A DNA stretch of 39,338 nucleotides from IMG/VR virus record IMGVR_UViG_3300042564_000462, positions 1 through 39,338 of that record; one strand, written 5' to 3'. Origin of the DNA: a virus. How positions within the stretch are numbered: the stretch's first letter is position 1; the number at the start of each line of letters is the position of its first letter. A program made the position numbers and the translations under genes. Below are positions 4,485 to 39,338 of the stretch, one piece after another. The notes below the pieces were generated by a model. That model was not told the DNA's origin, did no database searches, and saw nothing but the letters and a program-made list of their open reading frames with translations.

Positions 4485-5495
4485 ATGGCTGTAACAGGCT
4501 TATCGGGTGGTTCCGCCAATACTAATGGTGGTCTTGGTGGTGGACAGTACTCGTCCGCCAACAACGTAGGAACATTCACCCCATCAAATGGTGCTGGTCT
4601 AGTTCAGAAGGCTTACGATCGCCTTGTTGAATTTGAACTACGCGCTACCCCATTGCTACGTTCTGTAGCAGACAAGAAGCCTGCTCGTCAGGCTATGCCA
4701 GGTTCATCTGTAGCCCTACAGATCTACAACGATCTAGCTAAGGCTACTTCAGTTCTTTCTGAAGAAGTAGATCCAGCTGCAGTAGCACTTGGTACTCCAG
4801 ATATTGTTACCGTTACTCTAAACGAATACGGTAACTCTACTCTAGTAAGCAAGAAGCTTGGTCTTATGTCACTTGCTGACGTAGATCCAGCAGTTGCTAA
4901 CATCATTGCATTCAACATGGCTGATAGCATTGACGATCTAGCACAGAACGCTCTACTAACTGGTACTAACGTACTATACGCAACTGGTGGAACAACCACT
5001 GCAACTACAACTTCAGGAATCACTTCAGATGATACACTATCTGCTGCTGATATCCGTAAGGCTGTAGCTAAGTTGCGTAGCAACAAGGCTAACGGACGTA
5101 AGGGTTCACTTTACTGGTGTGGTATTCACCCAGAAGTTTCCCACGACCTTCGTGCCGAAACTGGTGCTGCTTCATGGCGTAACCCACATGAGTACCAGAG
5201 CAACGATGCAATCTGGGCTGGCGAAATTGGTCAGTTTGAAGGTGCATACTTTATTGAGTCTCCTCGTCTGTACACTGCTACAGATGGTGACAGCTCAATC
5301 AAGGTATACCGTACCTTCATTGCAGGACAGCAAGCACTTGCTGAAGCTGTAGCCGAAGAACCACACGTGGTTATCGGTCCAGTTGTAGATCGTTTGATGC
5401 GTCAGCGTCCAATCGGTTGGTACGGTGTTCTAGGACACGCTATCTACCGTAACGAAGCGTTGTTCCGTATTGAGTCTGCTTCTAGCATTGCCTAG
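4485..5495 (+). CDS. Major capsid protein, N4-gp56 type
   Basis: The 336-residue product builds the icosahedral shell. I recognise it as the N4-gp56 major capsid family from its overall pattern. The N-terminus is Gly/Ser/Asn-rich and disordered. A helix follows around residues 40-60 with the Leu-Arg-Ala-Thr-Pro-Leu-Leu type sequence. Next come a beta strand carrying Leu-Asn-Glu-Tyr-Gly-Asn (residues 109-114) and an Asp-Ile-Arg-Lys spine helix near residue 190. The C-terminal half carries an Ile-His-Pro-Glu segment and ends with a conserved Ile-Gly-Trp-Tyr-Gly stretch. AAGGA lies seven bases before ATG 4485. Codon choice is more regular and GC-richer than in the neighbouring giant gene, consistent with high expression. 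Confidence 0.9.
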   Translation: MAVTGLSGGSANTNGGLGGGQYSSANNVGTFTPSNGAGLVQKAYDRLVEFELRATPLLRSVADKKPARQAMPGSSVALQIYNDLAKATSVLSEEVDPAAVALGTPDIVTVTLNEYGNSTLVSKKLGLMSLADVDPAVANIIAFNMADSIDDLAQNALLTGTNVLYATGGTTTATTTSGITSDDTLSAADIRKAVAKLRSNKANGRKGSLYWCGIHPEVSHDLRAETGAASWRNPHEYQSNDAIWAGEIGQFEGAYFIESPRLYTATDGDSSIKVYRTFIAGQQALAEAVAEEPHVVIGPVVDRLMRQRPIGWYGVLGHAIYRNEALFRIESASSIA

Positions 5496-9412: not shown

Positions 9413-10483
9413 ATGGTTAAAATTGCAGCTTATGCTATAGCTAAGAATGAATCTAAACACGTCAAGCAATGGGTAGATGCTACTAAGAGTGCAGATGTTA
9501 GGGTAGTTCTAGATACTGGATCAGAAGATAACACCTATGACCTACTCCAGAAGTACCCCGTAGAAGCCCACAGAGCTACGCTAACGGACTTTAGGTTTGA
9601 TGTAGCACGAAATATGGCACTAGATTTAGTACCATCTGACGTAGATGTATGTGTCTCTTTAGACATGGATGAAGTTCCTGACTCAGACTTCTTTGATAAA
9701 CTACGACAGGCTTGGCAGCCTGACACTGGTAGAGCTTGGGTTATGTGGGACACAGGTAATATCTGGGCTAACAATAATCGTATCCATGCTAGACATGGTT
9801 ACAAGTGGAGGTATCCTTGCCACGAAGTAATAGAACCTAATGATAAAAGTTTAGATAAACTTATTCTAATAGAGTCATTAGTTACTCATAAACCAGATGA
9901 TGATAAACCTAGAAGTAACTACTTACAATTACTTGAACTAGGTCATGCTGAAGATCCTACGGATCACCGAATGATTGTTTACTTAGCTCGTGAGTATTAT
10001 TTCAAAGGTATGTGGCAAGAACTTATTAATGTTGGCAAGAAGTTAGAAGACATCCCTGGTTGGAATGTTGAACGTGCTCAGACTTGGCGTGGTATAGGTG
10101 AAGCCTACTGCAAGTTAGGTAATGATCGTGAAGGTCTTTACTGGTATCAACGTAATGTTGAGGAAGCACCATTAGATTTAGAAGCTTGGATGCCACTAGC
10201 TTTTTATTACTATGAACGCAAGATGTGGAATCACTGCTATCAAGCAGCTATTAAAGTAACTGAACTCACTAATGTATCTTATAAACATTATGTAGCTGAT
10301 CAGTCAATGCACTGGCGTATGTACGATTTACTTTCTATTGCATGTTGGAACTTAGGCAAGAAGGGTTCTGCTAAAAAGTATGCACGTAAAGCAGTTGATC
10401 TTAATCCTGATGATGAAAGATTAATAAAAAACTATGAGTTTATTATGACTCAGACTGTAAAGGATTACAAGAATGGCTTGTAG
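9413..10483 (+). CDS. GT2-like glycosyltransferase with TPR C-terminus (356 aa)
   Basis: The N-terminus has the glycosyltransferase family 2 pattern. A Lys-Asn-Glu-Ser motif lies at residues 11-14. An Asp-Thr-Gly-Ser-Glu-Asp-Asn-Thr nucleotide-sugar loop lies at 34-41. The DxD-type metal site Leu-Asp-Met-Asp-Glu is at 83-87. From about residue 170 the sequence changes to helical TPR-like repeats with Trp, Tyr and Ala at regular spacing and a final Leu-Asn-Pro-Asp-Asp repeat. GT2-TPR proteins transfer sugars to acceptors such as surface glycans or proteins. In a tail-gene neighbourhood this one could glycosylate virion proteins or alter the host surface. Its end overlaps the next gene by 11 bases. 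It is flanked by two related Cys-peptide starts. Confidence 0.85.
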   Translation: MVKIAAYAIAKNESKHVKQWVDATKSADVRVVLDTGSEDNTYDLLQKYPVEAHRATLTDFRFDVARNMALDLVPSDVDVCVSLDMDEVPDSDFFDKLRQAWQPDTGRAWVMWDTGNIWANNNRIHARHGYKWRYPCHEVIEPNDKSLDKLILIESLVTHKPDDDKPRSNYLQLLELGHAEDPTDHRMIVYLAREYYFKGMWQELINVGKKLEDIPGWNVERAQTWRGIGEAYCKLGNDREGLYWYQRNVEEAPLDLEAWMPLAFYYYERKMWNHCYQAAIKVTELTNVSYKHYVADQSMHWRMYDLLSIACWNLGKKGSAKKYARKAVDLNPDDERLIKNYEFIMTQTVKDYKNGL

Positions 10484-10904: not shown

Positions 10905-11348
10905 ATGGCAATGAAAAAAATGACTGGTGCTAGTAAGCCAGCTGCAAAGATGGCAGCTAAGGCTAAGCCATCACGTGGTAGCAAGACTGATAAGCAAATG
11001 GGTGATATGAATCAGCGTGAATCATATAACGCTAAGCGTGATGCAAACAATAAAGTAGTTGCAAAGTACGCTCCACTTAAAGTTAATACCAGTGCAGATA
11101 AAGTTAGCAAATCAAGTACTGGTGTAAAAGTAAAAGGTGAAACACCTCGTTACTCTATGCACAAAGAAGTTTTGGCTGCACGTAAAAAGCGCAACGAACA
11201 ACGCGCTGGTGGCAAAGTAGGAGTTACAAGTGCAGGTAAGTCTAATCCTAAAAAGCGACCTGCAGGCACAGGTGGTTCTATGCCTAAGTATATTCCAAGT
11301 GCAAAAGCAGTAAAAAATACAATAAAAAAGTCACAAAGAAGTAAGTAA
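10905..11348 (+). CDS. Highly basic protein (147 aa), possible DNA-condensing
   Basis: The 147-residue product is dominated by Lys, Arg, Ala, Ser and Gly with hardly any acidic residues or long hydrophobic runs. It resembles histone-H1-like or protamine-like disordered tails. The ATG lies one base after the preceding stop. A virion-packaged DNA-binding role or an RNA/nucleoid-binding role is possible. The sequence gives composition only. It is the first of three consecutive basic proteins, which together look like one functional set. Confidence 0.75.
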   Translation: MAMKKMTGASKPAAKMAAKAKPSRGSKTDKQMGDMNQRESYNAKRDANNKVVAKYAPLKVNTSADKVSKSSTGVKVKGETPRYSMHKEVLAARKKRNEQRAGGKVGVTSAGKSNPKKRPAGTGGSMPKYIPSAKAVKNTIKKSQRSK

Positions 11349-11350
11349 TC

Positions 11351-11617
11351 ATGGTAGCTAAGAAAGATCCACGGTTAACACGTGCTGGTGTTTCTGGCTA
11401 CAACAAGCCAAAGCGAACACCTAATCATCCTACTAAGTCGCACGTTGTTGTGGCTAAAAAAGGTACACAGGTTAAGACTATTCGTTTTGGACAACAAGGT
11501 GTGACGGGTGATAGACAACCTACTAAAAGACAGGCTTCGTTTAAAGCCCGTCACGCTAAGAACATTGCCAAAGGCAATATGAGTGCAGCGTACTGGGCGG
11601 ACAAAGTTAAATGGTAA
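11351..11617 (+). CDS. Basic small protein (88 aa)
   Basis: The 88-residue protein is rich in Lys, Arg and Gly with a Pro-Asn-His-Pro-Thr segment and a C-terminal aromatic-basic end (Tyr-Trp-Ala-Asp). It is well ordered for its composition, with a beta-like stretch containing Val-Val-Val and Thr-Ile-Arg-Phe-Gly. The stop overlaps the next ATG (ATGGTAA). It is part of the basic-protein run. DNA or RNA binding is plausible but not shown. Confidence 0.72.
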   Translation: MVAKKDPRLTRAGVSGYNKPKRTPNHPTKSHVVVAKKGTQVKTIRFGQQGVTGDRQPTKRQASFKARHAKNIAKGNMSAAYWADKVKW

Positions 11618-11766: not shown

Positions 11767-13800
11767 ATGGCTAACCCAATAGCACCACCAATAGATCAGT
11801 ACCGTGGTACTAACATTGTAGAAAAAGATAATGATTCAGTTGCATGGGAAGTTGCTGACTTTTTATTTGGTGCTAAGTCAATTAAAAAAATTATGGATGG
11901 CGAAGGCACTTGGGGCGATGCCCTTAACGTAGGTATAACTGCAGCCACATTTTTAATCCCACCTGCAAAGATAGCTCAACTAGGAACTAAAGCTTTAAGA
12001 ACTGTATTAGCAGAAACCATAGTTGTAAATGCTGCTACTGATTCATTGCCTGTTGTAGCTAAAGCAGCTGGTAAAACTAAATTAGAAATTGAAGCTGAGT
12101 TAGCTAGACGTGGTAAGCCAGTTGAATACAACCCTGCTGTAACTACTGCTGAAGATGTACGAACTCTTGAGCCAAACATAACACTTGGTCCTGGCGCAAC
12201 AGCAGATGATCTTGCTGAGTATCAGGCATCGCAAGGTCCTGCTAAGTTTTTAGAACGTAATCCTGATCTTGATCCTGAAGAGATTAGTATTCTTACAAAT
12301 AAAAATGACATACCATCTGTTGATAAGTCAGGCAAAGCTGTACCTAACAGTGAGCGAGCAGCTGACGCTAAAGTTAAACGTGACTTAAATCGTGGTACTC
12401 CAGAAGAAATTAAAACTGCACAGCAAGTTGATGAACTTAATACTAAAACACCACGCGAACCAGTTAAGCGTTCATCCGTTCAAGCTGAATTAGATAATAT
12501 TACTTCAGATAAAAATATCTTAGAAGAAATGCTTACTCTTTCTGGTGAAGAAGTTGGAAGAGATCAAGTAGGTAAAGTTGTTGGAACTCTACGCCGTCTT
12601 GCTCAAAAAGAAAAAGATCCAGAGATACGTAGAGAAATCTATAAAGACATAGAAGATCTTAAAAAGAATGGTGTATCAACAAACATAGTTGACAGAATTA
12701 AATCTGAAGTAGCAAAGCTTGATAGAACATCAGTTAGACTTCAAAGATATATTGATGATCCAACTGATCCAAAAGCTGTAGATTATGTTGAACGTTATAT
12801 TCCATTTTTTAAGACAGATAAAAAAACTGGAGCAACAACACGCGACTGGGCTAGTCCACGTAACTACGAAGCAGTTCGACCAGCAGGTAAGCCTGGCAAA
12901 GCACCAGACAGTCCTGCACGTTCTACGTTAACTGAATTAAAGTCTGATGAAAAATCTATTACACGCATGATAGATAATGAAACAGATCCAGATATTCTTT
13001 CTGGATTACGTTCTGACTTAAAGCGTACTCAAGAAGAAATCTTTAATCAAGAAACTAAGCAAGCACGTGAAGCAATTGCTAGGTCTCCAATTAAACCAGA
13101 ACAACCTAAAGCAACACCTGAACTTGCTGGTGCTAAAAAAGAAATAGATAAACTTCAAAAAGAAATTGATGATCTACGTGTTGAGTACACTGGCATTAAA
13201 GAACCAAAGACAATGCCAAACGGCGAAGAACTTTCAGTTCAACAGCAGCGTAAATTAATTGTTGAATCAGCCAGAATTAAAGGCGAGCAAATTAAAAAGC
13301 TAGAAAAGCGTGTACCTACAACTAAGTTAGAACCAGCAATCGAACCTGTTAAATCAGTTGCAAGTGAATTAAAACCAATTAATTTTTTTAGAGGAGAAAA
13401 TGCTTTTCTTTCTAACATGAGTGAGTCTTCTTTTAAGGTTGGTCAAGAAACTTATCCAACCGTTGAACATTTTTTCCAAGCAATGAAGACTACTGATTCA
13501 GCTCAACGTGCAAAAATTCTTGCTGCTAAGACAGCAGGAGAAGCAAAAAAAATTGGTAGGACTGTAACGCTTCGCAAGAACTGGACTCAAATACGTGAAG
13601 AAGTAATGGAAACTGCACTTCGCGCAAAGTTCCAACAAAATCCAGAACTAAAAAAGAAGTTAATTGACACTGGTGATGTTGAATTAATTGAAGGTAATAC
13701 CTGGGGAGATACTTTCTGGGGTCAAGTTAATGGCAAGGGTTCAAATAAACTTGGAAAGCTTCTTATGAAAATTCGTGATGAACTAATGGAAGGTAAGTAA
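11767..13800 (+). CDS. Virion-module protein with C-terminal NADAR domain (677 aa)
   Basis: Residues 538-677 form a complete NADAR (YbiA/DUF1768) domain. It opens with Phe-Phe-Arg-Gly and has Leu-Ser-Asn (548-550). The Tyr-Pro-Thr-Val-Glu-His-Phe-Phe-Gln-Ala block lies at 563-572. A Trp-Gly-Asp-Thr-Phe-Trp-Gly block lies at 646-652, followed by Asn-Lys-Leu-Gly. All family-defining residues are present, so an active glycosidase is expected. NADAR proteins act on N-glycosidic bonds of ribose derivatives, and some remove ADP-ribose from guanine in DNA modified by DarT-type toxins. Residues about 50-90 are hydrophobic, 240-350 and 430-530 are charged helices or coiled coil, and 370-420 are linker-like. 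It starts directly after the Lys-rich gene and overlaps the tail-adaptor start (TAATG), so it is made with the virion proteins. Injection with DNA is inference. Confidence 0.88.
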   Translation: MANPIAPPIDQYRGTNIVEKDNDSVAWEVADFLFGAKSIKKIMDGEGTWGDALNVGITAATFLIPPAKIAQLGTKALRTVLAETIVVNAATDSLPVVAKAAGKTKLEIEAELARRGKPVEYNPAVTTAEDVRTLEPNITLGPGATADDLAEYQASQGPAKFLERNPDLDPEEISILTNKNDIPSVDKSGKAVPNSERAADAKVKRDLNRGTPEEIKTAQQVDELNTKTPREPVKRSSVQAELDNITSDKNILEEMLTLSGEEVGRDQVGKVVGTLRRLAQKEKDPEIRREIYKDIEDLKKNGVSTNIVDRIKSEVAKLDRTSVRLQRYIDDPTDPKAVDYVERYIPFFKTDKKTGATTRDWASPRNYEAVRPAGKPGKAPDSPARSTLTELKSDEKSITRMIDNETDPDILSGLRSDLKRTQEEIFNQETKQAREAIARSPIKPEQPKATPELAGAKKEIDKLQKEIDDLRVEYTGIKEPKTMPNGEELSVQQQRKLIVESARIKGEQIKKLEKRVPTTKLEPAIEPVKSVASELKPINFFRGENAFLSNMSESSFKVGQETYPTVEHFFQAMKTTDSAQRAKILAAKTAGEAKKIGRTVTLRKNWTQIREEVMETALRAKFQQNPELKKKLIDTGDVELIEGNTWGDTFWGQVNGKGSNKLGKLLMKIRDELMEGK

Positions 13801-14699
13801 TGGCTACGTTTGGTCAAATGACTGATGAGGTATCACGTAAGTTAGCAGGCTTTACCCTGCGTCAAGATCGTCAGACACACCTTACTGCTGCAGTTAATGC
13901 AACTGCAACTAGTATTACTGTTGCTTCTGCTGCTAACATTTCTACTGGTGTTATTCAGATTGATGATGAATTAATTTATGTAGATTCTTATGACCGTAAC
14001 TCTGGTGTACTTAGCATTCCGCCTTATGGTCGTGGGTACAATGGCACATCTGCTGCTACACATCAGAACGGTGCACGTGTAATTGTATCTCCTACCTTCC
14101 CATCTGTAGACATTAAGGAAGCTATTAATGATACGATTCAGGCAGTTTATCCAGACTTGTATGCTACTGCTACCCATACATTCTCTTACTCAACAGCTAA
14201 ATCAACTTATGCTTTACCTGACGAAGCAGAAACTGTGCTTGCAGTATCCTTCCAAACTACTGGTCCATCTAAAGAATGGCTTCCTATTCGTAGTTGGCGT
14301 GTTGATTCTATGGCTAACACTGCTGCTTTTAATTCTCGCAACAGTATTAGTCTTTACTCTGGTGTTGAACCAGGAAGAACTGTACAGATATTTTATACAT
14401 CCGCACCAACCGTAATGGATACCAATGATGATGAGTTTGAAATTGTTACTGGTTTACCTGTGTCCTGTAAGGATGTAATTGTTCTTGGTGCAGCAGCACG
14501 ACTAGCTTCATTCGTAGATCCAGGTCGTTTAACCTTTGGCTCTGCTGAATCAGATCAACAATCACAGATTGCTGGTCGCTCTTATGGTGCTGGTACTAAC
14601 ACTGCTAAATACTTGCTTGCACTATATGACAAGAGACTTGCTGAAGAAAGTCGAAAGTTAACTGATCGTAACCCAACTAGAATCCACTTCACAAGATAG
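13800..14699 (+). CDS. Tail adaptor / head-tail connector (299 aa), probable
   Basis: The product has 299 residues, coupled by TAATG to the NADAR gene. An N-terminal helix is followed by a small beta domain at about residues 27-97. This domain has the recurrent phage pattern of Thr-Ser-Ile-Thr-Val, Ile-Gln-Ile-Asp-Asp-Glu-Leu-Ile and Gly-Arg-Gly-Tyr-Asn-Gly-Thr. Helices then alternate with beta strands, ending in a helical C-terminus. The layout recalls podovirus gp11-type adaptor or stopper proteins that bind the portal. Its neighbours are a fibre and a large beta-propeller-like protein, matching an adaptor-nozzle pair. The role is inferred from pattern and position. Confidence 0.75.
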   Translation: MATFGQMTDEVSRKLAGFTLRQDRQTHLTAAVNATATSITVASAANISTGVIQIDDELIYVDSYDRNSGVLSIPPYGRGYNGTSAATHQNGARVIVSPTFPSVDIKEAINDTIQAVYPDLYATATHTFSYSTAKSTYALPDEAETVLAVSFQTTGPSKEWLPIRSWRVDSMANTAAFNSRNSISLYSGVEPGRTVQIFYTSAPTVMDTNDDEFEIVTGLPVSCKDVIVLGAAARLASFVDPGRLTFGSAESDQQSQIAGRSYGAGTNTAKYLLALYDKRLAEESRKLTDRNPTRIHFTR

Positions 14700-25191: not shown

Positions 25192-25688
25192 GATGCTTGA
25201 TACTCAATGTCGTAGTCCCATTTGTTTTCTTCTGTGATCTCATCAAGCAATTCAGTTAGTTGCTTGTGTGTTTCTTCAATGTCATGCCAGTACCACTCAT
25301 CAATGTCAGTAGATCCAAAGAAGAATCCTGATGCTGGTGGTAGTAACTCAAGAGCTAACTCAGTTGATCTGCTATCAAGCAGCACTCCACATCTATTATG
25401 TAGTGCAACTAAGTTCTCTCTAGTTACTGGTATAACTTGGCAAGTATCTTCACCACCTGCTAGTGTATCTACAAACCATGAATGAATTTGATTAGACTTA
25501 CGCCAATAGATAGCAGTCCACTCTACTGATACTGATGATGCTATGTTATCTTTTACTTTGATACCTGCAGCTTCAACGATGTCATTATACCTAGGGTTCT
25601 CTGCAAAGCTTACTCGATTGTTGTAATCTTTACGAGATATCTGGCTACCAATACGTTCACTTACATTTAGGTACATATCAAGACCCAT
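25185..25688 (-). CDS. Conserved-type phage protein (167 aa), unknown
   Basis: It begins Met-Gly-Leu-Asp-Met-Tyr-Leu and carries a Trp-Arg-Lys-Ser-Asn-Gln-Ile-His-Ser-Trp-Phe-Val block near residue 62, a pattern I recall from uncharacterised phage and bacterial proteins. A later Asp-Glu-Trp-Tyr-Trp-His motif and an acidic helical C-terminus follow. No Zn motif was seen. It overlaps the DUF932 stop by 11 bases. The Trp/His cluster could be a ligand-binding site. The function is unknown. Confidence 0.78.
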   Translation of the reverse strand: MGLDMYLNVSERIGSQISRKDYNNRVSFAENPRYNDIVEAAGIKVKDNIASSVSVEWTAIYWRKSNQIHSWFVDTLAGGEDTCQVIPVTRENLVALHNRCGVLLDSRSTELALELLPPASGFFFGSTDIDEWYWHDIEETHKQLTELLDEITEENKWDYDIEYQASW

Positions 25689-26658
25689 TGCTTACTCCTA
25701 ATAGTTGTAGGGCACGTGACTTCACGGCAATGTCTGTGCCGAGAATCATCTTGCCTGCTTGTTTTTTATAGTCTTTACTGAAGTGATCGGTTGCTTCTAC
25801 GATAGCTTGAAACGCACCGAACTTAGTGTTCTTAATGTTGTGTTGCGTGTCTGTCTCACCAATCCATACGTTCAATGCACTAGCTCTGTTACGTTCTACT
25901 CTTGTCTTAGATGTACGTTCACCTGCACTGAGCATCTCGTATGGTGAGAACTCAATCTTGCTAGGCAGTGGGTACACTCGCTTAACAAAGTTCTTGAACT
26001 CTTCGTTACTGAATTCAATTGAACGTAGGTATGACGATACTGTTGCATACTTCTGAACATCTTCGTTCATAATTCTAAATGCTTTTCGGATATCATCTGG
26101 GTTGATACTGCTGTTAGGGCTGTGCTTAACACGGTAGTAAATACCTTTAGCTTTACCACTCATCATTGCAGCATTGATCTGATTGGTACATCCAATACGA
26201 TTGACAACTGGTGTCATTTGGAATGGCATACTACCATCGTGTGATGTACGTGCAATTACATATGCATTATGTGGATCGTCACCTACTGTTACGTTAGCTG
26301 GTAGTTCAATGGTTGCCCATACTACATTGCCACCTTTGAGTTCACCTGCTGCACCATAACGTGCATCACTGTTGTTAACGATGTCGTCAAGGCATGAGAA
26401 GATCTCATCATTCTGTAGTACTTTGTATCGTGAACCTACTATTGCTAGTGGTGTAGGGTCTGTCTCAGTCCACCCCGTATTAGTCCACTTAACTGTTGCA
26501 TATCTATCTGGTACTTCAAGTGGATCAGTCTCATTAATAAATACATTTTCTAATGTAACCTTCCAGTCAAGTCCAGCCTTTACCATTAGGTCATGTGCTG
26601 AGTTAACTTCGTACTCACTATGCGTACCAATTACTGTGTAAGGATCTCGTCTAGTCAT
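25678..26658 (-). CDS. DUF932 family protein (326 aa)
   Basis: The recognisable pattern is that of DUF932/phage-plasmid-like TIGR03299 proteins. Near residues 79-86 there is Ile-Val-Gly-Ser-Arg-Tyr-Lys-Val, followed by Gln-Asn-Asp-Glu. Thereafter a strand-rich core holds a Thr-Pro-Val-Val-Asn-Arg-Ile-Gly-Cys-Thr-Asn-Gln motif. A helical C-terminal half ends in Arg-Ala-Leu-Gln-Leu-Leu. DUF932 genes often accompany phage recombination or replication genes, but their reaction is not known. Here it follows several small ORFs and precedes WhiB. The start ATG 26658 overlaps the previous gene by eight bases in ATGACTAG. Confidence 0.88.
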   Translation of the reverse strand: MTRRDPYTVIGTHSEYEVNSAHDLMVKAGLDWKVTLENVFINETDPLEVPDRYATVKWTNTGWTETDPTPLAIVGSRYKVLQNDEIFSCLDDIVNNSDARYGAAGELKGGNVVWATIELPANVTVGDDPHNAYVIARTSHDGSMPFQMTPVVNRIGCTNQINAAMMSGKAKGIYYRVKHSPNSSINPDDIRKAFRIMNEDVQKYATVSSYLRSIEFSNEEFKNFVKRVYPLPSKIEFSPYEMLSAGERTSKTRVERNRASALNVWIGETDTQHNIKNTKFGAFQAIVEATDHFSKDYKKQAGKMILGTDIAVKSRALQLLGVSNGS

Positions 26659-30101: not shown

Positions 30102-30163
30102 AGGGTTAGTATTAGTAGAGGTTATAAGTAAAGCAAGCTTGTCTTATGGCTTGCCAGTTAATT

Positions 30164-30186
30164 GCAACCCCCTTTGGAGGGGTTGC
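30164..30186 (+). terminator. GC hairpin in terminase leader, attenuator candidate
   Basis: GCAACCCC (30164-30171) pairs with GGGGTTGC (30179-30186) around a 7-nt loop, followed by TTACTATTACTATT. The T run is not continuous, so termination would be partial. It separates the candidate promoter from the terminase gene and could let late transcription be regulated by antitermination. Confidence 0.55.
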
Positions 30187-30190
30187 TTAC

Positions 30191-30213
30191 TATTACTATT
30201 ATTAATAGTAATA
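30191..30213. repeat. 23-bp AT palindrome before terminase
   Basis: TATTACTATTA (30191-30201) and TAATAGTAATA (30203-30213) are perfect inverted arms around one T. An overlapping second inverted repeat (TAATAGTA at 30203-30210 with TACTATTA at 30212-30219) continues it. It lies 27 bases before ATG 30240. Operator, packaging-related or DNA-unwinding roles are possible. Confidence 0.55.
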
Positions 30214-30239
30214 CTATTATTAGAATAATTAGGTTTATT

Positions 30240-32132
30240 ATGGCTGCTAAAGCTGGAGATCAACACCATACCAGACTTCGGCAAATTGAAGATCAGAGAA
30301 AGTTTATTTCTTTTCTTAAGCAGGGCATAGATATGGATTCCGCCCTTGCTGCTGTGGGAAAGAAGCGGACCAGCCTTAGATCTTGGATGCTAGATGGGGA
30401 ATTTGCCGCGCAGGTTGAGGAAGCCATTAACTTTGGATCCGATGCCATTGCCGCCTCACTAGGTGAAAATAAACATAAAATTGATTTTGCCACGTTCTCT
30501 AAAGAGTTCTTGAACACCGAGGTATTCCCTCATCAGCAAAACTGGATTGACGTTCTTGAGGGTCGTGACCCAGCGTGGCAACACCCTTCCATGACATTTG
30601 AGCCAGGCAACCGCCGTAGGCTTCTGATGAATGTACCCCCAGAACATGCCAAGTCAACCACCATGACGGTTAACTACGCCATGTACAAAATTGCTTTAAA
30701 TCCTAATATTCGGATTGTGGTTATTTCCCAGACCCAGACACGCGCCAAGGAGTTCTTGTACTCCATCAAGCAGCGCATGACCGAAGAGCCGTGGCTTAAG
30801 ATGCAACAGGTCTATGGTCCCCCAGGGGGCTATAAGGAGACAGCAGACCAATGGACTGCAGACAGAATTTATCTCGAAAGAGAGTCAGGGGAGAAGGACC
30901 CAACGGTTCAAGCTCTTGGCATTGGACAACAGATTTACGGTACTCGTGCGGATCTAATCATCATGGACGATATTGTCTCAACGACAAACGCGCACGAATG
31001 GGAGAAGCAACTCAACTGGTTGCAGAAGATGGTCGTTACCCGTGTGGGTTCGACTGGGACCTTGCTGATTGCTGGGACTAGAGTTTCCTCAATAGATCTA
31101 TATAAAGAAATTAGAAATCCCGAACACTGGACTGGCGGTAGGTCACCCTTCACATATCTTGCCATGCCAGCTGTACTTGAGTTTGACGATAAGCCTGAGA
31201 AGTGGAAGACACTTTGGGCTAGGTCTGATAGACCGCTGGATGGGGCTGACGAGTTTGATGATCCAGAATTGCTTACACCCGATGAAAACGGGCACTTTGT
31301 AAAGTGGGACGGTAGGCGACTGTTTGAGCGTCGTAGCGAGGTTAGCCCCTCCACGTGGGCACTTGTTTACCAACAACAAGATGTAGAGGAAGATGCGATA
31401 TTCCCACTTCCTATTGTTAATGGTTCAGTAAACCGTATGCGTAAAGTTGGTAAACTTAACTTCAATGCTCCTGGACATCCAAGTCCTCAAGGTTCTTGGT
31501 TTGTTATTATGGGGCTGGATCCTGCCATGTCTGGCAAAACAGCTATGGTTGTCTATGCAGTCAACCGAGAGACCAACAAGCGATACGTGCTTGATGTGTA
31601 CAACATGGCTGAATCTACTCCACAAAAGATTGATAGCTTAATCAAGGAGTGGGTAGAGATCTACCAACCACAAGAGCTACGCATTGAAATCAATGCTTAT
31701 CAAAAAGCTTTTTCGCTTGACAATGACTTGCGAATGTGGCTTGCCAGCCGTGGTACTGCACTACGAGAGCACTTTACCAGCAAGAATAAGTGGGATGTTA
31801 ACTTCGGTGTAGCTGCAATGTCATCCCTATTCGGTAGTATGCGTGATGGAAAGTTTAACAGGGACAACCTTATTGAGCTTCCCGATAACTCTAATGAGCA
31901 TGTTAAGGCTTTAGTTAACCAGTTAATTACCTGGAAGGCTGATACCAAAGGACCAACTGACTGTGTTATGGCACTGTGGTTCTGTGAGATTAGAGCAAAA
32001 GAATTAATTCAACAAAGTAACTTCAGAACGGCACACGCTAATAACAAGTGGGCAACAAGAAGAAACGTCGCTATGCAAGGTGTAGTAAACCTTGATGAGA
32101 TGGCAATGGAAACATTGTCAGGTCTATACTAG
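30240..32132 (+). CDS. terL: Terminase large subunit (630 aa)
   Basis: The ATPase has a Walker A-like Pro-Pro-Glu-His-Ala-Lys-Ser-Thr near residues 132-139 and Walker B Leu-Ile-Ile-Met-Asp-Asp near 239-244. The RNase H-like nuclease starts at Met-Gly-Leu-Asp-Pro-Ala near residues 424-429 with Asp427 as a likely ligand. The protein packages DNA into proheads and cuts it. I choose ATG 30240; an upstream TTG at 30162 would read through a hairpin and a palindrome and is rejected. No separate small terminase was found, though a short HTH-like N-terminal helix (residues about 25-50) may serve in recognition. The first two thirds are clearly GC-richer than the rest of the block, a possible recombination sign. 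Confidence 0.93.
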   Translation: MAAKAGDQHHTRLRQIEDQRKFISFLKQGIDMDSALAAVGKKRTSLRSWMLDGEFAAQVEEAINFGSDAIAASLGENKHKIDFATFSKEFLNTEVFPHQQNWIDVLEGRDPAWQHPSMTFEPGNRRRLLMNVPPEHAKSTTMTVNYAMYKIALNPNIRIVVISQTQTRAKEFLYSIKQRMTEEPWLKMQQVYGPPGGYKETADQWTADRIYLERESGEKDPTVQALGIGQQIYGTRADLIIMDDIVSTTNAHEWEKQLNWLQKMVVTRVGSTGTLLIAGTRVSSIDLYKEIRNPEHWTGGRSPFTYLAMPAVLEFDDKPEKWKTLWARSDRPLDGADEFDDPELLTPDENGHFVKWDGRRLFERRSEVSPSTWALVYQQQDVEEDAIFPLPIVNGSVNRMRKVGKLNFNAPGHPSPQGSWFVIMGLDPAMSGKTAMVVYAVNRETNKRYVLDVYNMAESTPQKIDSLIKEWVEIYQPQELRIEINAYQKAFSLDNDLRMWLASRGTALREHFTSKNKWDVNFGVAAMSSLFGSMRDGKFNRDNLIELPDNSNEHVKALVNQLITWKADTKGPTDCVMALWFCEIRAKELIQQSNFRTAHANNKWATRRNVAMQGVVNLDEMAMETLSGLY

Positions 32133-32140
32133 GAAATTAA

Positions 32141-33892
32141 ATGGCATTATCAACCGAGCAAGTTACCAATAAGGTATTAGCTCTAACACGCAGATACTCT
32201 GAGCGTGACTACAGAATGGCAGATATTACTGCTGTTCGCCGTGGCAACATGGAGTCCGTGTATCCAGATATGTTCCCAGAGGGCATGTCTCGTCCAATGA
32301 TTGCTAACTTTGTTGACGTTGCTGCCCGTGACATTGCTGAAGTTCTTGCTCCACTTCCTTCCTTTAACTGCTCAACTCCAAGTATTAACTCTGATAAAGC
32401 AAAAAAGTTCTCTGACAAGCGAACCATTATTGCTAACAACTACGTTGAATTTTCTAACCTTCAGACTCAGATGTATACGGGTGCTGACTGGTACTTGACC
32501 TATGGTTTCTTGCCAATCTTTGTTGATGCCAACTTTGATGCAAACATGCCACACATTCGTATCGAAAATCCAATGGGTTCCTACCCAGAGTTTGATCGTT
32601 TTGGTCGTTGTGTATCTTTTACCAAGAAATACATTAAGACTATTCGTGAACTAATTGTTGATTTCCCTGAATACGAACGTGTAATTATTGGTGATCTTGG
32701 TCGCGATATGGCTGACCTTGATAACAATATGGAACTAATGCGCTATGAAGATAGCGATCAAGTAGTTTTGTTCTTACCACAACGTGGTAACTTAGTTCTT
32801 CGTAAAGCTAAGAATCCAATTGGCAAACTATCCGTTGTAGTTGCTCGTCGTCCAGGACTTGATTTAGATGACCCACGTGGTCAGTTTGATGACGTACTAT
32901 GGGCACAGATTGCTCGTGCTCGCTTTAGCATGTTGGCTATGGAAGCTGCAGAAAAATCTGTACAAGCTCCACTTGTTCTACCTAATGACGTATCTGAATT
33001 TGCGTTTGGTCCTGACTCGGTTATCCGCACAAACAATCCTGCTGGTGTACGTCGTGTAGCTCTTGAGCTACCTACTGGTGCGTTTACTGAACAGCAGTTG
33101 CTTGAGCAAGAAATGCGTATGGGTGCTCGTTACCCAGAGGGAAGATCAGGTAACATTGATGCGTCTATTATTACAGGTTCTGGAGTTCAAGCACTTCTTG
33201 GTGGCTTTGATTCGCAGATAAAAGCTGGTCAACAAATTCTTGCTGAGACTTTCCAGCAAGTTATGGAACTTTGCTTCCACATTGATCAAACCTTATTTGA
33301 TCTAGAAAAAACAATGACTGGTGTTTACCAAGGTGCACCATACGAAATTAGCTATAAGCCATCTAAGGATATTAAGAATGACTACAGCATTCAGGTCCGT
33401 TATGGTGTTATGGCTGGACTTGATCCATCACGCGCTCTTATCTTCTCGCTACAGGCATTGCAAGCTGGATTGCTATCTCGTGAGTTTGTAATGAGCGAGC
33501 TACCTTGGAGCATGAATGTTGGTCTTGAAAAGGATCGCATTGACATTGAGCGAATGCGAGATGCTCTTTCTGGTTCTATTGGAGCATTAACTCAAGCTAT
33601 TCCACAAATGGCAGCTAATGGGGCTGACCCTTCAGATATTATTGAAAAGATTGCTACTGTAATTGACATGAAAAAGAAGGGCACTTCTATTGAAGATGCT
33701 GTCATGGAAATTTTTAAGAAAGAAGAAGGCGAAGTAGAAGAAGCTCCAGGAATGCCTGAGCAACCTGAAGCTCCTGAAGGAATGCAACAGGGTGCTCCAC
33801 CTCAACCTGCACCTGCAGGTCCAGAAGGTCAACCAGCAGGACCACCACCAGATGTTGCTAGTATTCTAGCTCGTCTGCGTGGCGGAGCATGA
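32141..33892 (+). CDS. Portal protein (583 aa)
   Basis: The long mixed alpha/beta protein follows the terminase. An N-terminal clip/wing region includes the Gly-Arg-Cys-Val block. A conserved Arg-Arg-Pro-Gly-Leu-Asp-Leu-Asp-Asp-Pro-Arg-Gly segment comes in the middle. A helical stem then includes Ser-Gly-Val-Gln-Ala-Leu-Leu-Gly-Gly-Phe. The C-terminal 60 residues are a Pro/Glu/Gln-rich tail that is likely disordered. Its size, order and pattern match podovirus-type portals, the dodecameric DNA gateway of the head. ATG 32141 lies eight bases after the terminase stop with AGGA upstream. It overlaps the next gene by four bases (ATGA). Confidence 0.88.
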   Translation: MALSTEQVTNKVLALTRRYSERDYRMADITAVRRGNMESVYPDMFPEGMSRPMIANFVDVAARDIAEVLAPLPSFNCSTPSINSDKAKKFSDKRTIIANNYVEFSNLQTQMYTGADWYLTYGFLPIFVDANFDANMPHIRIENPMGSYPEFDRFGRCVSFTKKYIKTIRELIVDFPEYERVIIGDLGRDMADLDNNMELMRYEDSDQVVLFLPQRGNLVLRKAKNPIGKLSVVVARRPGLDLDDPRGQFDDVLWAQIARARFSMLAMEAAEKSVQAPLVLPNDVSEFAFGPDSVIRTNNPAGVRRVALELPTGAFTEQQLLEQEMRMGARYPEGRSGNIDASIITGSGVQALLGGFDSQIKAGQQILAETFQQVMELCFHIDQTLFDLEKTMTGVYQGAPYEISYKPSKDIKNDYSIQVRYGVMAGLDPSRALIFSLQALQAGLLSREFVMSELPWSMNVGLEKDRIDIERMRDALSGSIGALTQAIPQMAANGADPSDIIEKIATVIDMKKKGTSIEDAVMEIFKKEEGEVEEAPGMPEQPEAPEGMQQGAPPQPAPAGPEGQPAGPPPDVASILARLRGGA

Positions 33893-34142: not shown

Positions 34143-34544
34143 ATGGCACAGCAAGGTGGTAAGCGACCAGTTCGTACCAATAGTCAAGCTAAGCCAGTTT
34201 CTGGACCAGGTGCTTTGTCACAGCGTACTGATATGATGACTGCAAGCAATCCAAATGTTTATGGCGATCGTAAAGCTACTGAAGAGTTAATGTCCGCTGC
34301 TCCTATGGCTAGACAGCAACAAGTTTCTAAGCCAACTGTTACTGATCTTTTTGCTCCAACTCAACGCCCTAATGAACCAGTTACTGCTGGCAATCCACTG
34401 GGCGAAGGTCCAGGACCAGAAGCTCTTAATCTTCCTGCTCGTACATTTAATCCAACACAAATTCTTTCACGCTTAGCAGAGTCAGATCCTTCTGGTGAAA
34501 TTGATATGATCTTACAGGAACTAAACAGTAAAGGTATTGTTTAG
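34143..34544 (+). CDS. Pro/Gln-rich structural protein (133 aa)
   Basis: The product is low complexity, rich in Pro, Gln, Ala, Ser and Thr, with no hydrophobic core, and looks disordered. A helical C-terminus (Ile-Leu-Ser-Arg-Leu, Ile-Asp-Met-Ile-Leu-Gln-Glu-Leu) could bind another protein. It lies between the portal-associated gene and the giant protein. The stop overlaps the giant gene's GTG (TAGTG). It may be a flexible linker or a small internal head protein. The role is inferred from position. Confidence 0.72.
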   Translation: MAQQGGKRPVRTNSQAKPVSGPGALSQRTDMMTASNPNVYGDRKATEELMSAAPMARQQQVSKPTVTDLFAPTQRPNEPVTAGNPLGEGPGPEALNLPARTFNPTQILSRLAESDPSGEIDMILQELNSKGIV

Positions 34545-37500
34545 TGACAGTTCAACCAATGGGTGGAATGCCTGAAGAAATCCCAGGTTCACTTCCATCA
34601 ATGACTCCTTTGCCACAAATGCAAAGTATTTTTGATAAAACACAAAGCGATCCATCTACTGCTGCCGTTCGTAAATTAGATGCAACCGTTGCACGTGTAT
34701 CTCCTGCTCTTTATGCTGCAGGATCACGAGCTGCATTAACTCGTGAAGAAAAAAACTTAATTGAAAACTGGGCTAAAGTTCGTGATACCCATAAGCAATT
34801 AATGAAAATGAATAATAAACAAGCTGGCGAATCTTACAATAAATTAGAACCAGGTTTTCAAGAAGCTTTAAAAACATATTACAAAACAGACTATGCAAAT
34901 AAGTCTGAAGGTGGCGAATTAATTCAAAACGAAGATGTTCGTAAAGCTCTTGGTATTCAAGACACTGATGGTGTAATCAGTCCAATGGATGTTGTTAAAA
35001 GTCCATTTAAGTTTTTAATGGGTGCTGCTACTCAATACGGTAAGTTTTTTAATACCCCTGGCGCAATGCTACAAAACTCTATTGTTAACAAAGAATCTTT
35101 TTGGAGTCGTAGCAATGGTGAAATTGCTTTTGATGGCAAATATCTTTATGACAATGAACTAGCTGATGAATTAGTTAACAAGTATGGTGCTGCTGAAAGT
35201 TTTGTAGCAATGCACGTACTTGCTGGTGATACACCTGGTGAAATTATTGATGCTTGGGGTCCTAATGATCCTGCCATTCTTGCTGCAGTTAATGCAATGT
35301 TTAATGAAGAAGAATCATTTGGATTTATGCTAGGTGAGTTTTCACGAGCACAACTATCTCCTGGTCGCATTGCTGGTCGTTGGATTAATAAAAAACTTAA
35401 TATTGATACAAACAAACATGTTGGTGTATTTAATTTTAGTACTGGTGCTATTGATGCAGCTTATCAAATTTTTGCAGACCCATTAACATATTTAACATTT
35501 GGTGCATCAGCAGTTATTAAGGGTGCAAGTAAAGCAGAAAAGCTAGCATCTGTTATTAAGTCTGGGGAAGATGTTCCAGCGTTTCTTGCAAACCCTGCTG
35601 TTGCAGAACTTTATGGTGGTTACGCAACACGCATTGGTGAACTTGGTGAAGCATTAGCTATTAAGGCAACTACTTCAGAAGAAGCTGCATTAAAAGCAGC
35701 TAAGGTTGCTGAAGCAAGAAGAATAATTAACACAGATTATCCTCAGCTAGCTGATCCTAAAGATGTAGATGTTTGGCTTCAGTATGGTGTTCGAGATTTA
35801 GATTCTTTTAGAAATTTATTTTTAGATGAGGGCGCAAAAGAATACACACGTTTAATTCGTGGTAGAGATATGAGCATGAGTTATGCTCGTGAAGGTGCAG
35901 CGTATGCAAAGCGTTCACGCGGAGCAACACTTAAAGCTAAAGAAGTTTTGCGTAATACTTTTCTTGGCAAAAGAGTAGATGAAAAAGATTCTGTAACTGA
36001 ATACGCTAATATTCGTGCTAAATTATTTGAAGATGAACCATTAGATATTGACATTGCTGTTAATCGTAAGCAAAATGCATTTCAAAAATTTATTGAACGT
36101 CAAACTAGATTGCATCCTGGTCGTGCTGTTGTATTTCACGACGATGCAAACTATATGAAAAGTGTAGACGTTTTTCAAAAGCAAGCATTTATGGCTTTTG
36201 GTCGTCAAGATTTAGCAGAACTTGCTACTGCTGATTTTATTGCTGGTACTCAAGCTGATCGTTTTGCTTTACATCGTTCTATTTTTGAATTAATTATGCG
36301 TCGAGAAGGTATTCATGGAATGCCTGGTGGTCAACGCTTTATTGACGAAGCACTTGAAAAGCATTTTGGTACAAAAAATACTTGGACAACATCAGATGAA
36401 GTTATGGTTCCAAGAAATGCAGGATTATCTGATGATCGTCCAGCTAACGTAAATGTATCTGGTCCACTTCATGCTTCACAATTTCAAAACTTTGTTGCAT
36501 CTCCTGACTGGAGAGCAATATCAGAGTTTGTTGCAGATCGTTCTTTTAGAAAATCTGACAATCAAAAAGCTATTGAGTACATTCCACAATTAATTGGTGG
36601 AGCATACAATCATCGAGTAACTGGAATTGTTACAGACGTTTGGACAACCCTTACTCTTGTTCCTCAGTTGGGTATTCGTACTGCAATTGATGAAGGCTTT
36701 ATGTTCCTAATGTATGCAAACCGCAGCATGTGGGGAAATCGTAAGATTGCAAAAGAGTACCAACGCATTTTTAATGCTGCTGTTGGTATGGATAATCTGG
36801 CTGGTGTTGGTCCTATTAAAAGTGGGATTGAGGGACTCAGAACAAAAATTTCTGGAAAGCCAGTTGGTGCATCACGAGCCATTGATGACAGACAACGTGC
36901 ATTTATTCGTAAAGAAGTACAGGAACAAAATAAAGATCTTCCAGTTTGGCAACAAGAAGAACTTATTAGAGAAAGAGTTCTTGATACTGCGATTACTATG
37001 CATGGCACAAAGCTAAGTCTGGAACAAAAAAAATGGTTTAAAGAACTAGTAATGGATAATCCAAAGGTTCTTCATAGTATTTCAAGCAAGCAAGTTACTG
37101 ATGCAATGCAAGGCAAAACAGCAGTAATGGAATTTGATAATTTATTAACTGATAGCCAGTTGGATATGGCTATGAGTAGCCTTGGTCTTGTAGCACAGGG
37201 TGCTATTAAATCTTTTCAAGTTAGTTCAATGAAAGAATCTCATCGCGACATTGCCATGTTCCGCAACTTTACTCGTATCTTTAACGATAAAGGATTTGAA
37301 GTACGTAACGGCAAAGATGTAAGTCGCTTTAGCTTTGCTTCTATTTTCCTTAAGCATGATGGTATTGCTACTCCAGAAGACTGGACAAGAGCTACTAATG
37401 AATTAATGGCTAATTTTGGTTTTGTAAAAAATACCGAAGGTGCTTGGGTTGTTAAAGTTGGAAAAGAAAAAGAAGTAGAAAAAATAATTAACAGCACTCG

Positions 37501-39338
37501 CTTCTTTGACGACTGGAAAGATCTTGCAAATCCAGCTGATAAAATGCAAGAATTTATTCGTGCTGGTTTATCTGATACTTATACAACATTTCATGGTGCA
37601 GCAGATACTTTTAATCCAAAGTTAATTAAGTTCTTTGATGACTACCGCAGTGGCAAAGTTATTGATCATCGCAAGTTAATGGATAACATTGACTTTGAAA
37701 CTTATGTTGATGCTACAACTGGATTTAAAGTTAAAGGTCATATTATGACCGATATTAAATTTGATGGTGTAGCTACTGATTTAAGAACTGCAATTCAAAA
37801 CTTTGGTCCAGACCAAGCGTTTGATTTAATGGCTCGCCAAACAGATGCTATTACTCGTATGCCAGTTACTCACATGCATTACATTGCATTCCGCGAGCAA
37901 TACAAAACTGGTGAAACAGCTATGGCTAGACAGCTTGCAGATAGTCGCATTAGAGAACTTGAAGCTGATGGTTCAATACTTAACGACAAAGCAATATTCA
38001 AAATTGAACAAAACGCAAGAGAACAAGCAAGTAAGTTTTTTGCTAATAAAGCAATTAATGATGCTGCACAACACGTATTAAAGTTTTCTGATAACCCTGC
38101 ACAGCAAACTGTATTTGCGTACAACATGCGTACTGTAGGACGTTTTTATCGTGCAGTTGAAGACTTCCATCGTCGTATGTATCGTCTTGTTAAAGATCAC
38201 CCACTTGAAACAATCTATCGTTTGCGTTTAATGAATCAAGGTTTTGATGCTGTAGGTGATATTCACACAGATCAAGATGGTAACAAGTATGCAATTCTTC
38301 CTATGGATGATGTTATCTACAGTGCAGTTGATACCACTATTCGCGCATTAACTGGTGGAGAAGAAAGCATTAAGCAACCATTGTTTAATGACATTACTTT
38401 TAACTTAACTGCTGGTAATCCTTCTTTCCAAACTGATGCTGGTATGCCATACCTTTCAGGTCCAATGGGATCGCTATCCGTTGCTGCGGTTAAGGGAATG
38501 CTTGGTGTATTCAATCCAACTAAAAATCTTGCAGAAGATGTTGATAATCTTTTCCTTGGGGATCTTGGAGATAACGTAACTGCAATTAAAGCTGTTCAAC
38601 CAAAGCTTGTGCGAAACATTTTAGCTATGTTGAACCCTGATGAAAAGTCAACACAGGAAATTTCTGCAGTAACACAAGCAATTAGTTACAATCAGGCTAA
38701 TGGTATTGCTATTGATCCAGAAGATCCTAAGTATTTATTGCCAGATGGTAGTATTAATCAAGCATTGTTTGCTAAAGATCAAGCTGAATACTTAAAAAAT
38801 CTACGCATTAGCGCACATAACATTATTGTTACTCGTGCATTGCTAGGTCTTATTCTTCCATTTTCTGTACAAACTAAAAGTACAAAAGACTTACCTGAAT
38901 ACCTGCTAGATAGTGGTATTACTTCTATGCAAGAAAGCTTTTATGAGGTTTTAGATCAAATTAAAAGCAAGTATCCAGATGCAACCGAGCATTATGAAAT
39001 GGCATTGGCTACATGGATGGGTGAAAACCCAGGCAAGATTGCTTATGTTGTATCTAAGAAGTCAAAAGAAATACAACCTATTCTTAATTACTCAAAAGAA
39101 ATGCAAGACTGGGCTATATCAAATCAATCTGCTATTGATGAGTTTGGTGCTGGTGCTTTACTGTTTGCTCCTAGAGTTGGAGAGTTTAGTCCAGGTGTAT
39201 GGCAGTGGGCTACTTCTGCAGGTATTGCACAAAATACAAATATTGAAGAATACTATGGAAAAGTTAGTATGCAACAGTACATTAATGCATACTATGCTTT
39301 GGGAGATCAGGAAGCTGCAGAACTTAAGGCAGTTCCAT
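34544..39338 (+). CDS. Giant virion (internal/ejection-type) protein, N-terminal part
   Basis: It begins at GTG 34544 (TAGTG overlap) and stays open to the window edge. It continues from position 3 to the stop at 647, giving 1744 residues in the circular genome. The first 35 residues are Pro/Met/Gly-rich. Hydrophobic or amphipathic segments follow at about residues 145-165, about 695-725 and about 1426-1440. The rest is mostly soluble helix with Lys, Asn and Asp. Size and location between portal and scaffold resemble the large internal ejection proteins of podoviruses (T7 gp16 class), which leave the head with the DNA and help cross the envelope. No transglycosylase catalytic motif was found, so it is not simply a T7 gp16 copy. 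Confidence 0.85.
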   Translation, partial: MTVQPMGGMPEEIPGSLPSMTPLPQMQSIFDKTQSDPSTAAVRKLDATVARVSPALYAAGSRAALTREEKNLIENWAKVRDTHKQLMKMNNKQAGESYNKLEPGFQEALKTYYKTDYANKSEGGELIQNEDVRKALGIQDTDGVISPMDVVKSPFKFLMGAATQYGKFFNTPGAMLQNSIVNKESFWSRSNGEIAFDGKYLYDNELADELVNKYGAAESFVAMHVLAGDTPGEIIDAWGPNDPAILAAVNAMFNEEESFGFMLGEFSRAQLSPGRIAGRWINKKLNIDTNKHVGVFNFSTGAIDAAYQIFADPLTYLTFGASAVIKGASKAEKLASVIKSGEDVPAFLANPAVAELYGGYATRIGELGEALAIKATTSEEAALKAAKVAEARRIINTDYPQLADPKDVDVWLQYGVRDLDSFRNLFLDEGAKEYTRLIRGRDMSMSYAREGAAYAKRSRGATLKAKEVLRNTFLGKRVDEKDSVTEYANIRAKLFEDEPLDIDIAVNRKQNAFQKFIERQTRLHPGRAVVFHDDANYMKSVDVFQKQAFMAFGRQDLAELATADFIAGTQADRFALHRSIFELIMRREGIHGMPGGQRFIDEALEKHFGTKNTWTTSDEVMVPRNAGLSDDRPANVNVSGPLHASQFQNFVASPDWRAISEFVADRSFRKSDNQKAIEYIPQLIGGAYNHRVTGIVTDVWTTLTLVPQLGIRTAIDEGFMFLMYANRSMWGNRKIAKEYQRIFNAAVGMDNLAGVGPIKSGIEGLRTKISGKPVGASRAIDDRQRAFIRKEVQEQNKDLPVWQQEELIRERVLDTAITMHGTKLSLEQKKWFKELVMDNPKVLHSISSKQVTDAMQGKTAVMEFDNLLTDSQLDMAMSSLGLVAQGAIKSFQVSSMKESHRDIAMFRNFTRIFNDKGFEVRNGKDVSRFSFASIFLKHDGIATPEDWTRATNELMANFGFVKNTEGAWVVKVGKEKEVEKIINSTRFFDDWKDLANPADKMQEFIRAGLSDTYTTFHGAADTFNPKLIKFFDDYRSGKVIDHRKLMDNIDFETYVDATTGFKVKGHIMTDIKFDGVATDLRTAIQNFGPDQAFDLMARQTDAITRMPVTHMHYIAFREQYKTGETAMARQLADSRIRELEADGSILNDKAIFKIEQNAREQASKFFANKAINDAAQHVLKFSDNPAQQTVFAYNMRTVGRFYRAVEDFHRRMYRLVKDHPLETIYRLRLMNQGFDAVGDIHTDQDGNKYAILPMDDVIYSAVDTTIRALTGGEESIKQPLFNDITFNLTAGNPSFQTDAGMPYLSGPMGSLSVAAVKGMLGVFNPTKNLAEDVDNLFLGDLGDNVTAIKAVQPKLVRNILAMLNPDEKSTQEISAVTQAISYNQANGIAIDPEDPKYLLPDGSINQALFAKDQAEYLKNLRISAHNIIVTRALLGLILPFSVQTKSTKDLPEYLLDSGITSMQESFYEVLDQIKSKYPDATEHYEMALATWMGENPGKIAYVVSKKSKEIQPILNYSKEMQDWAISNQSAIDEFGAGALLFAPRVGEFSPGVWQWATSAGIAQNTNIEEYYGKVSMQQYINAYYALGDQEAAELKAVP
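39132..39338. repeat. Terminal direct repeat, right copy
   Basis: This is the second copy of bases 1-207, with T at 39211 where the left copy has C at 80. The coding frame of the giant protein is the same in both. Duplicate bases should be counted once when the genome is treated as circular. Confidence 0.95.

Follow-up and report, generated by a model that had tools for sequence, protein, structure and literature searches.

Among NADAR enzymes, mutagenesis or co-crystal structures have established the importance of residues E43, K50 and E125 in P. nicotianae and of E88, K95 and D171 in E. coli C7 (PMC11543638). At the third of these positions the YbiA subfamily has Glu, the DarT1-linked NADARs have Asp (D171), and the gp30.3 type has His (PMC11125620, PMC11543638). 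Both E. coli YbiA and T4 gp30.3 hydrolyze ADP-ribose (ADPr)-guanine in vitro but failed to relieve the toxicity of DarT1 in cells, while YarT, a different ART toxin, is rescued by a myxobacterial YbiA (PMC11125620). Fusions of SLOG, macro, NADAR and DUF4326 domains in phages, together with their NAD+-ADPr network, were described by Iyer et al. 2022, who tied this set of domains to soluble ADPr derivatives and suggested virion packaging for some phage Macro, NADAR and Nudix proteins (PMC9503650). Polyvalent proteins (Iyer et al. 2017) are multidomain effectors whose genes lie close to those of the virion and which are believed to be co-delivered with DNA; the virion RNA polymerase of the N4 type is packaged and then injected (PMC5512222). 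T4 Alt and the MuF-fused ARTs are NAD-related, head-packaged effectors as well, joined to virion proteins or encoded alongside them.

The locus described here lies in a 39,338-base IMG/VR record with 46 genes, which in its full length is referred to as the window. It includes the following gene:

11767 to 13800, plus strand: modular fusion protein gene (677 aa, ATG start, TAA stop; open reading frame intact)

The NADAR domain of this protein belongs to the YbiA subfamily (PF08719), having the same fold-defining motifs, the same catalytic E/K/E, and 2B3W and 8BAU as nearest structures, and it differs from the DarT1-linked (Asp) and gp30.3 (His) types. NADARs of the YbiA subfamily usually stand alone, whereas that of the window forms the C-terminal part of a protein from the virion module. 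The cargos found at this position in related phages comprise the same domain set, in variable combinations, as the fusions of Iyer et al. 2022. In that study, however, viral domains are typically stand-alone and NADAR occurs in 0.3% of small phages (PMC9503650); here one carrier has many alleles, and the carrier phages are ~39-kb, podovirus-like actinophages. By analogy, the fusion protein would work like a polyvalent protein, although the polyvalent domains ArdC-N, DdrB-ParB, MPTase and PBECR were not recognised in it, its N-terminus is without a known match, and its cargo is thematically uniform (ADPr). The virion RNA polymerase of phage Pylas, which is N4-like, has a SLOG domain homologous to that of related fusion proteins, in a class of polymerase that is packaged and injected in N4; it differs in having a polymerase as carrier, in lacking NADAR, and in its unrelated N-terminus. 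T4 Alt and the MuF ARTs attach ADP-ribose, whereas NADAR takes it off. Fusions among NADAR, SLOG, macro and DUF4326, and the packaging of enzymes of this kind in virions, have been proposed already (Iyer et al. 2022); what is new is a conserved carrier with a hyper-variable ADPr payload in ~39-kb phages.

The phage and its probable host

Counterparts of 21 of the 46 window genes are present in Planktophila phage LanE43AprE7, with 71% identity for the capsid protein and 56% for terminase and portal. This phage was isolated on a 'Ca. Nanopelagicales' strain (PMC10202952); E7 and a further relative, F5, both grow on Ca. Planktophila LanE-43, and in E7 the slot described below is without the carrier gene. 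A similar gene set was matched, more weakly, in Streptomyces phage Manuel (Beephvirinae). Based on these matches, the host is probably a freshwater low-GC actinobacterium. The window also encodes:

4485 to 5495: major capsid protein
30162 to 33892: terminase and portal

Rfam and tRNA scans of the window gave no matches. Downstream of the portal, an open reading frame of at least 1,598 aa (34544-39338) continues past the right end of the contig; it has no Pfam or PHROGs match and a weak similarity (24%) to E7. A glycosyltransferase-like protein with TPR repeats (phrog_13126) is encoded at 9413-10483, between the tail-fibre genes and the basic proteins. A DUF932 protein (25678-26658, minus strand; E value 1e-36) is located in a leftward-transcribed block, together with genes for a Cas4-like PD-(D/E)XK nuclease, a DnaB-like helicase and a Toprim protein.

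Gene neighbourhood

The fusion gene has a late-operon position among the virion genes, near those of the capsid, between a basic protein and an SU10-type adaptor:

10905 to 11348, plus strand: basic 147-aa protein (pI 10.8; no family match in Pfam or PHROGs)
11351 to 11617, plus strand: basic 88-aa protein, left border of the slot (pI 11.5; phrog_7595)
13788 to 13793, plus strand: GGAAGG, probable adaptor ribosome-binding site, within the final codons of the fusion gene
13800 to 14699, plus strand: tail/head adaptor, SU10-type (PF24175 SU10_adaptor, E value 1.7e-6; phrog_7578, E value 6e-106)

A preliminary description of this DNA, made from its letters, held that the gene is coupled to the tail adaptor and preceded by basic proteins. 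Both points are borne out by the one-base overlap of the fusion stop with the start of the PF24175 adaptor (E value 1.7e-6) and by the pI of the two upstream products (10.8 and 11.5). Across the 19 gene-bearing loci compared, almost all cargo variants end in GGAAGG or a close form of it. Because the adaptor ribosome-binding site is kept in the last codons, the cargo could be exchanged without disturbing the adaptor. The phrog_7595 protein shows a conservation that is striking for a small basic protein: it is 87% identical to its Planktophila phage E7 counterpart (L019:19481-19735), while the adjoining adaptor is only 41% identical.

The NADAR domain

13378 to 13797, plus strand: NADAR domain, YbiA-type (residues 538-677; Pfam, PHROGs, TIGRFAM and PDB matches)
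13465 to 13467, plus strand: catalytic E567 (P. nicotianae E43, E. coli C7 E88)
13486 to 13488, plus strand: catalytic K574 (P. nicotianae K50, E. coli C7 K95)
13690 to 13692, plus strand: catalytic E642 (P. nicotianae E125)

The profile PF08719 covers residues 544-673 (E value 4.3e-31; 108.8 bits against a Pfam cut-off of 35.1), phrog_1017 matches the same part of the protein (E value 2e-46), and a phmmer search of the PDB aligned the domain with the solved NADARs of E. coli (YbiA, 2B3W; E value 2e-26) and P. nicotianae (8BAU; E value 1e-7). The match in the 677-aa reading frame is far above chance. The preliminary description had been right to call this a NADAR fused to a protein of the virion module; its interval of 13378-13800 corresponds to residues 538-677 plus the stop, and every hallmark motif that it named was found. 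All three catalytic residues are kept in the alignment with 2B3W and 8BAU, and E642, the Glu of the last strand, is invariant in the NADAR alignment (A4). Since this third residue is Glu and not Asp, the domain is YbiA-type and not of the DarT1-linked, BC4488 type. It is predicted to hydrolyze N-glycosidic ADPr bonds, and, on the precedent of other family members, ADPr-guanine would be an expected substrate in vitro. The dN/dS of the domain is ~0.25-0.28 against the relatives L003 and L026, and thus the enzyme is maintained under purifying selection. Decay or artefact of the NADAR was ruled out by this ratio together with the intact catalytic set.

TIGR02464, 'riboflavin biosynthesis intermediates N-glycosidase', also scores above its cut-off on this domain (E value 1.5e-25; 90 bits against 73.7), as might be expected of a metabolic or house-cleaning N-glycosidase acting on riboflavin intermediates, as YbiA does, with no role in defence. 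We consider such a role very improbable, given that no flavin genes were recognised among the scanned proteins, and that near-identical phages vary their cargo, which includes unrelated ADPr domains and no flavin enzymes.

The carrier region and stalk

11767 to 12066, plus strand: conserved N-terminal carrier region (residues 1-100; helical; alignment A2, 16 loci)
12067 to 13350, plus strand: charged, variable stalk (alignment A1; composition)

The start Met is shared by the window gene and its homologues L002 (864 aa) and L003/L005 (838 aa). The core of the carrier, residues 27-68, reads WEVADFLF..S.KI..G.GTWGDA..VGITAATF.IPPAK in the alignment of 16 loci. In the viral contigs that match this N-terminus, the gene sits immediately 5' of the adaptor. 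No homologue of it was detected in INPHARED at E values up to 1 or in GTDB contigs, and in a PHROGs search of the fusion protein the NADAR part alone was matched, with no ejection-protein match for the N-terminus. By sequence comparison, therefore, it appears to be a conserved carrier whose recognised homologues are confined to the related phage group. An AF2 model of the region contained helices only (pLDDT 51), was not interpretable and was not taken into a fold search. In the stalk, which diverges fast among relatives, K, R, D and E make up 36% of residues 100-540. The hydrophobic stretch reported in the preliminary description is only moderate (maximum 19-residue Kyte-Doolittle hydropathy 1.37), and neither a transmembrane helix nor an N-terminal transmembrane anchor is indicated.

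Cargo turnover among relatives

Scans with the adaptor and with the N-terminus yielded 52 and 23 related loci, respectively. In 22 contigs, a large protein that begins with the shared ~100-residue N-terminus occupies the slot bounded by the basic 88-aa protein and the adaptor, and in 28 contigs the slot contains at most a small protein; in relatives with an empty slot, the 88-aa protein often directly adjoins the adaptor. Nine cargo states were found among the 22 contigs:

NADAR alone: window, L026
SLOG and NADAR: L022, L025, L064
SLOG: L028, L032, L033, L059, L067
SLOG and DUF4326: L068
macro, DUF4326 and SLOG: L065
DUF4326 and macro: L066
SLOG, DUF4326 and NADAR: L090
DUF3626: L089
none recognised: L021, L023, L027, L031, L034, L035, L043

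The NADAR, DUF4326, phage macro (A1S_2505) and DUF3626 assignments are backed by significant profile hits. The window protein has one enzymatic domain and its relatives up to three (L065, L090). Nearly all cargo families fall within the NAD+-ADPr network of Iyer et al. 2022 (PMC9503650). The preliminary description took no account of this set of interchangeable ADPr-type cargos or of the additional SLOG in the nearest relative.

Presence of the gene is clade-stable, with 2 changes on a tree of 50 adaptor proteins, while the cargo state changes 12 times on the adaptor tree (22 rows). The adaptors of the window, L021 and L022 are 99% identical, and the respective cargos are NADAR, none recognised, and SLOG with NADAR; the N-termini of L021 and the window share only 44% identity. 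A single branch (SH-aLRT 87) sets the six slot NADARs apart, a grouping that points to one capture with later loss and exchange and does not support multiple independent captures. As 7 of the 22 variants have no recognised cargo, either the carrier is useful without an enzyme or the enzyme was not recognised.

In L089 (5902-8610) the carrier N-terminus is joined to a DUF3626 domain (PF12294, E value 1e-9, residues 706-793), the sole recognised cargo absent from the ADPr set of PMC9503650; a comparison of this cargo with the PDB gave unconvincing hits only. Among slots without the carrier, those of L045 (4562-4849), L046 (7714-8001) and L054 (7714-8001) are occupied by a small protein of HNH-like appearance (HVDHKDNNHKNG), and those of L041 and L053 (7600-8001) by a 133-aa basic protein. 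The slot therefore accepts other small genes too.

The SLOG domain of sister alleles

The nearest relative of the window gene has an additional SLOG domain, whose position in the window is marked by a junction:

13336 to 13337, plus strand: SLOG-less junction (L002, L003 and L005 have a ~190-aa SLOG here; the window has none)

In a DNA alignment this absence is clean, in-frame and 567 nt long against L002, and it is the main difference from the L002/L022 gene. A short GAACC.G repeat flanks the SLOG on both sides. Such a single in-frame absence with a repeat at both edges might also mean that the window form without SLOG arose by misassembly or belongs to an allele in decay. This is quite improbable, for the window and L002 represent different phages, with 87-98% DNA identity across the aligned blocks, the frame and the NADAR are intact, and L026 independently has NADAR without SLOG.

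The AF2 model of the sister-allele domain (pLDDT 92.4) had a SLOG-superfamily structure, 3imk, as its top solved match (E value 3e-4, fold search), and the model thus agrees with a SLOG-type Rossmannoid fold. The Pfam scores of the domain are below cut-off, a search of PDB sequences with the SLOG profile gave no hit, and its homologues carry the annotations DprA-like or DUF2493. The nearest INPHARED relative of the slot SLOG (40% identity; E value 5e-40) is found in Klebsiella phage Pylas (Schitoviridae), within its virion RNA polymerase of 3,819 aa, at residues 983-1150 (L093:9001-9507), upstream of the recognised RNA polymerase domains (1599-2355). A related SLOG occurs inside crAss-like proteins of ~5,801 and ~4,328 aa (L134, L135), annotated 'DprA-like' only.

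Host defences and candidate substrates

The host order surveyed, which we take to be Nanopelagicales, comprised 121 genomes of ~1.3 Mb, with rhodopsin in 50 of 61. DarT was detected in one of the 121, as a weak match, and other families were similarly sparse (TIR_2, 2/121; ThsB_TIR, 1/121; SIR2_2, 1/121; RES, 5/121); NADAR was found in 0 of the 121. In a sample from the class of Frankia sp. R82, DarT was present in 25 of 395 genomes; this class is presumably Actinomycetes. No ART gene was recognised in the window among the ~27 of 46 proteins scanned with Pfam.

The preliminary description proposed that the NADAR specifically repairs DarT-type guanine ADP-ribosylation on the incoming phage DNA. 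In vitro cleavage of ADPr-guanine by T4 gp30.3 and YbiA (PMC11125620) and the DarT genes in the wider class sample speak for this proposal. It is nevertheless improbable: the window domain has the YbiA-type Glu instead of the DarT1-linked Asp, DarT1 toxicity in vivo is not rescued by the YbiA and T4 enzymes (PMC11125620), DarT is all but missing from the inferred host order (1/121, weak), and the alternative cargos SLOG and DUF4326 suggest small ADPr molecules (PMC9503650). The anti-DarT part of the preliminary description is not supported.

Alternatively, the payload may not repair DNA at all and may instead destroy or sequester the low-molecular-weight ADPr signals that immune enzymes of the TIR, Sir2 or ART kind produce. 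SLOG, NADAR, macro and DUF4326, whose co-fusion has been linked to soluble ADPr derivatives (PMC9503650), are exactly the domains that share the slot, and because of this correspondence signal removal is a somewhat better guess than an anti-DarT role. It is a possible reading but a doubtful one, since few genomes of the inferred host order have TIR, ThsB or Sir2 families. A further point against it is that no assay of these signals with SLOG, DUF4326 or NADAR is known to us.

The acI/Nanopelagicales are among the most abundant freshwater bacteria and are described as having few defence systems (PMC12143481, PMC10202952), so that the recurrence of an ADPr payload is a puzzle. The rarity of known NAD-based defences in the inferred host order counts against a counter-defence explanation, although fragmentary genomes or unrecognised ARTs and NADases may lie behind it.

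Proposed delivery in the virion

We propose that the fusion gene encodes a modular late protein that is carried in the virion and injected with the DNA, and whose interchangeable NAD+/ADPr-processing payload acts against host defence; this proposal has, in our judgement, a slightly better than even chance of being correct. The conserved helical N-terminus and the charged stalk would form the carrier, which would ride in the virion and enter the cell alongside the DNA. The C-terminus would be the exchangeable payload, in the window phage a single YbiA-type NADAR that could, as infection begins, reverse host ADP-ribosylation or destroy a signal derived from ADPr. Its substrate may be the DNA-guanine adduct, a different macromolecule or a small ADPr molecule. 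The sequence analysis establishes the NADAR with its catalytic residues and purifying selection, the modular build, the conserved carrier with its fast cargo turnover and the late-operon position; that the protein is part of the virion, is delivered by it and counters host defence is what we infer.

Virion delivery is plausible because the same SLOG type is found in a Schitoviridae virion RNA polymerase and in giant crAss-like proteins. The late-gene slot directly 5' of the adaptor is in its favour, as is the combination of a stable carrier with changing enzymatic cargo; an N-terminus that has no homologue among known virion or ejected proteins (PHROGs, INPHARED), and whose structural model is not interpretable, counts against it. 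The protein could instead act outside the virion, late in the cell, as an assembly factor or chaperone near the portal, with the enzyme working on the replicating pool or against superinfection. Late-operon position alone does not prove packaging, recognised ejection-protein homology is absent (PHROGs, INPHARED), and the carrier often lacks a recognised cargo, all of which would suit an intracellular protein. We hold this to be rather unlikely, given that a conserved carrier with swapped enzymatic cargo fits injected effectors and that a virion RNA polymerase bears the same SLOG type.

More tentatively, and with rather less confidence than in the proposal itself, the slot may be seen as a 'payload bay' of the virion. 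Its carrier would be one not seen elsewhere, phages of the Nanopelagicales would recombine ADPr enzymes faster than their structural genes diverge, and a cryptic NAD/ADPr immunity would be implied in streamlined hosts thought to be defence-poor. The conserved N-terminus is a candidate packaging or ejection signal. If the protein is injected, it would represent a small-genome case in which an enzymatic ADPr counter-defence arrives together with the DNA, and for which natural alleles can be compared, and the acI/Nanopelagicales would exert an ADPr-based pressure on their phages through systems missed by the families tested.
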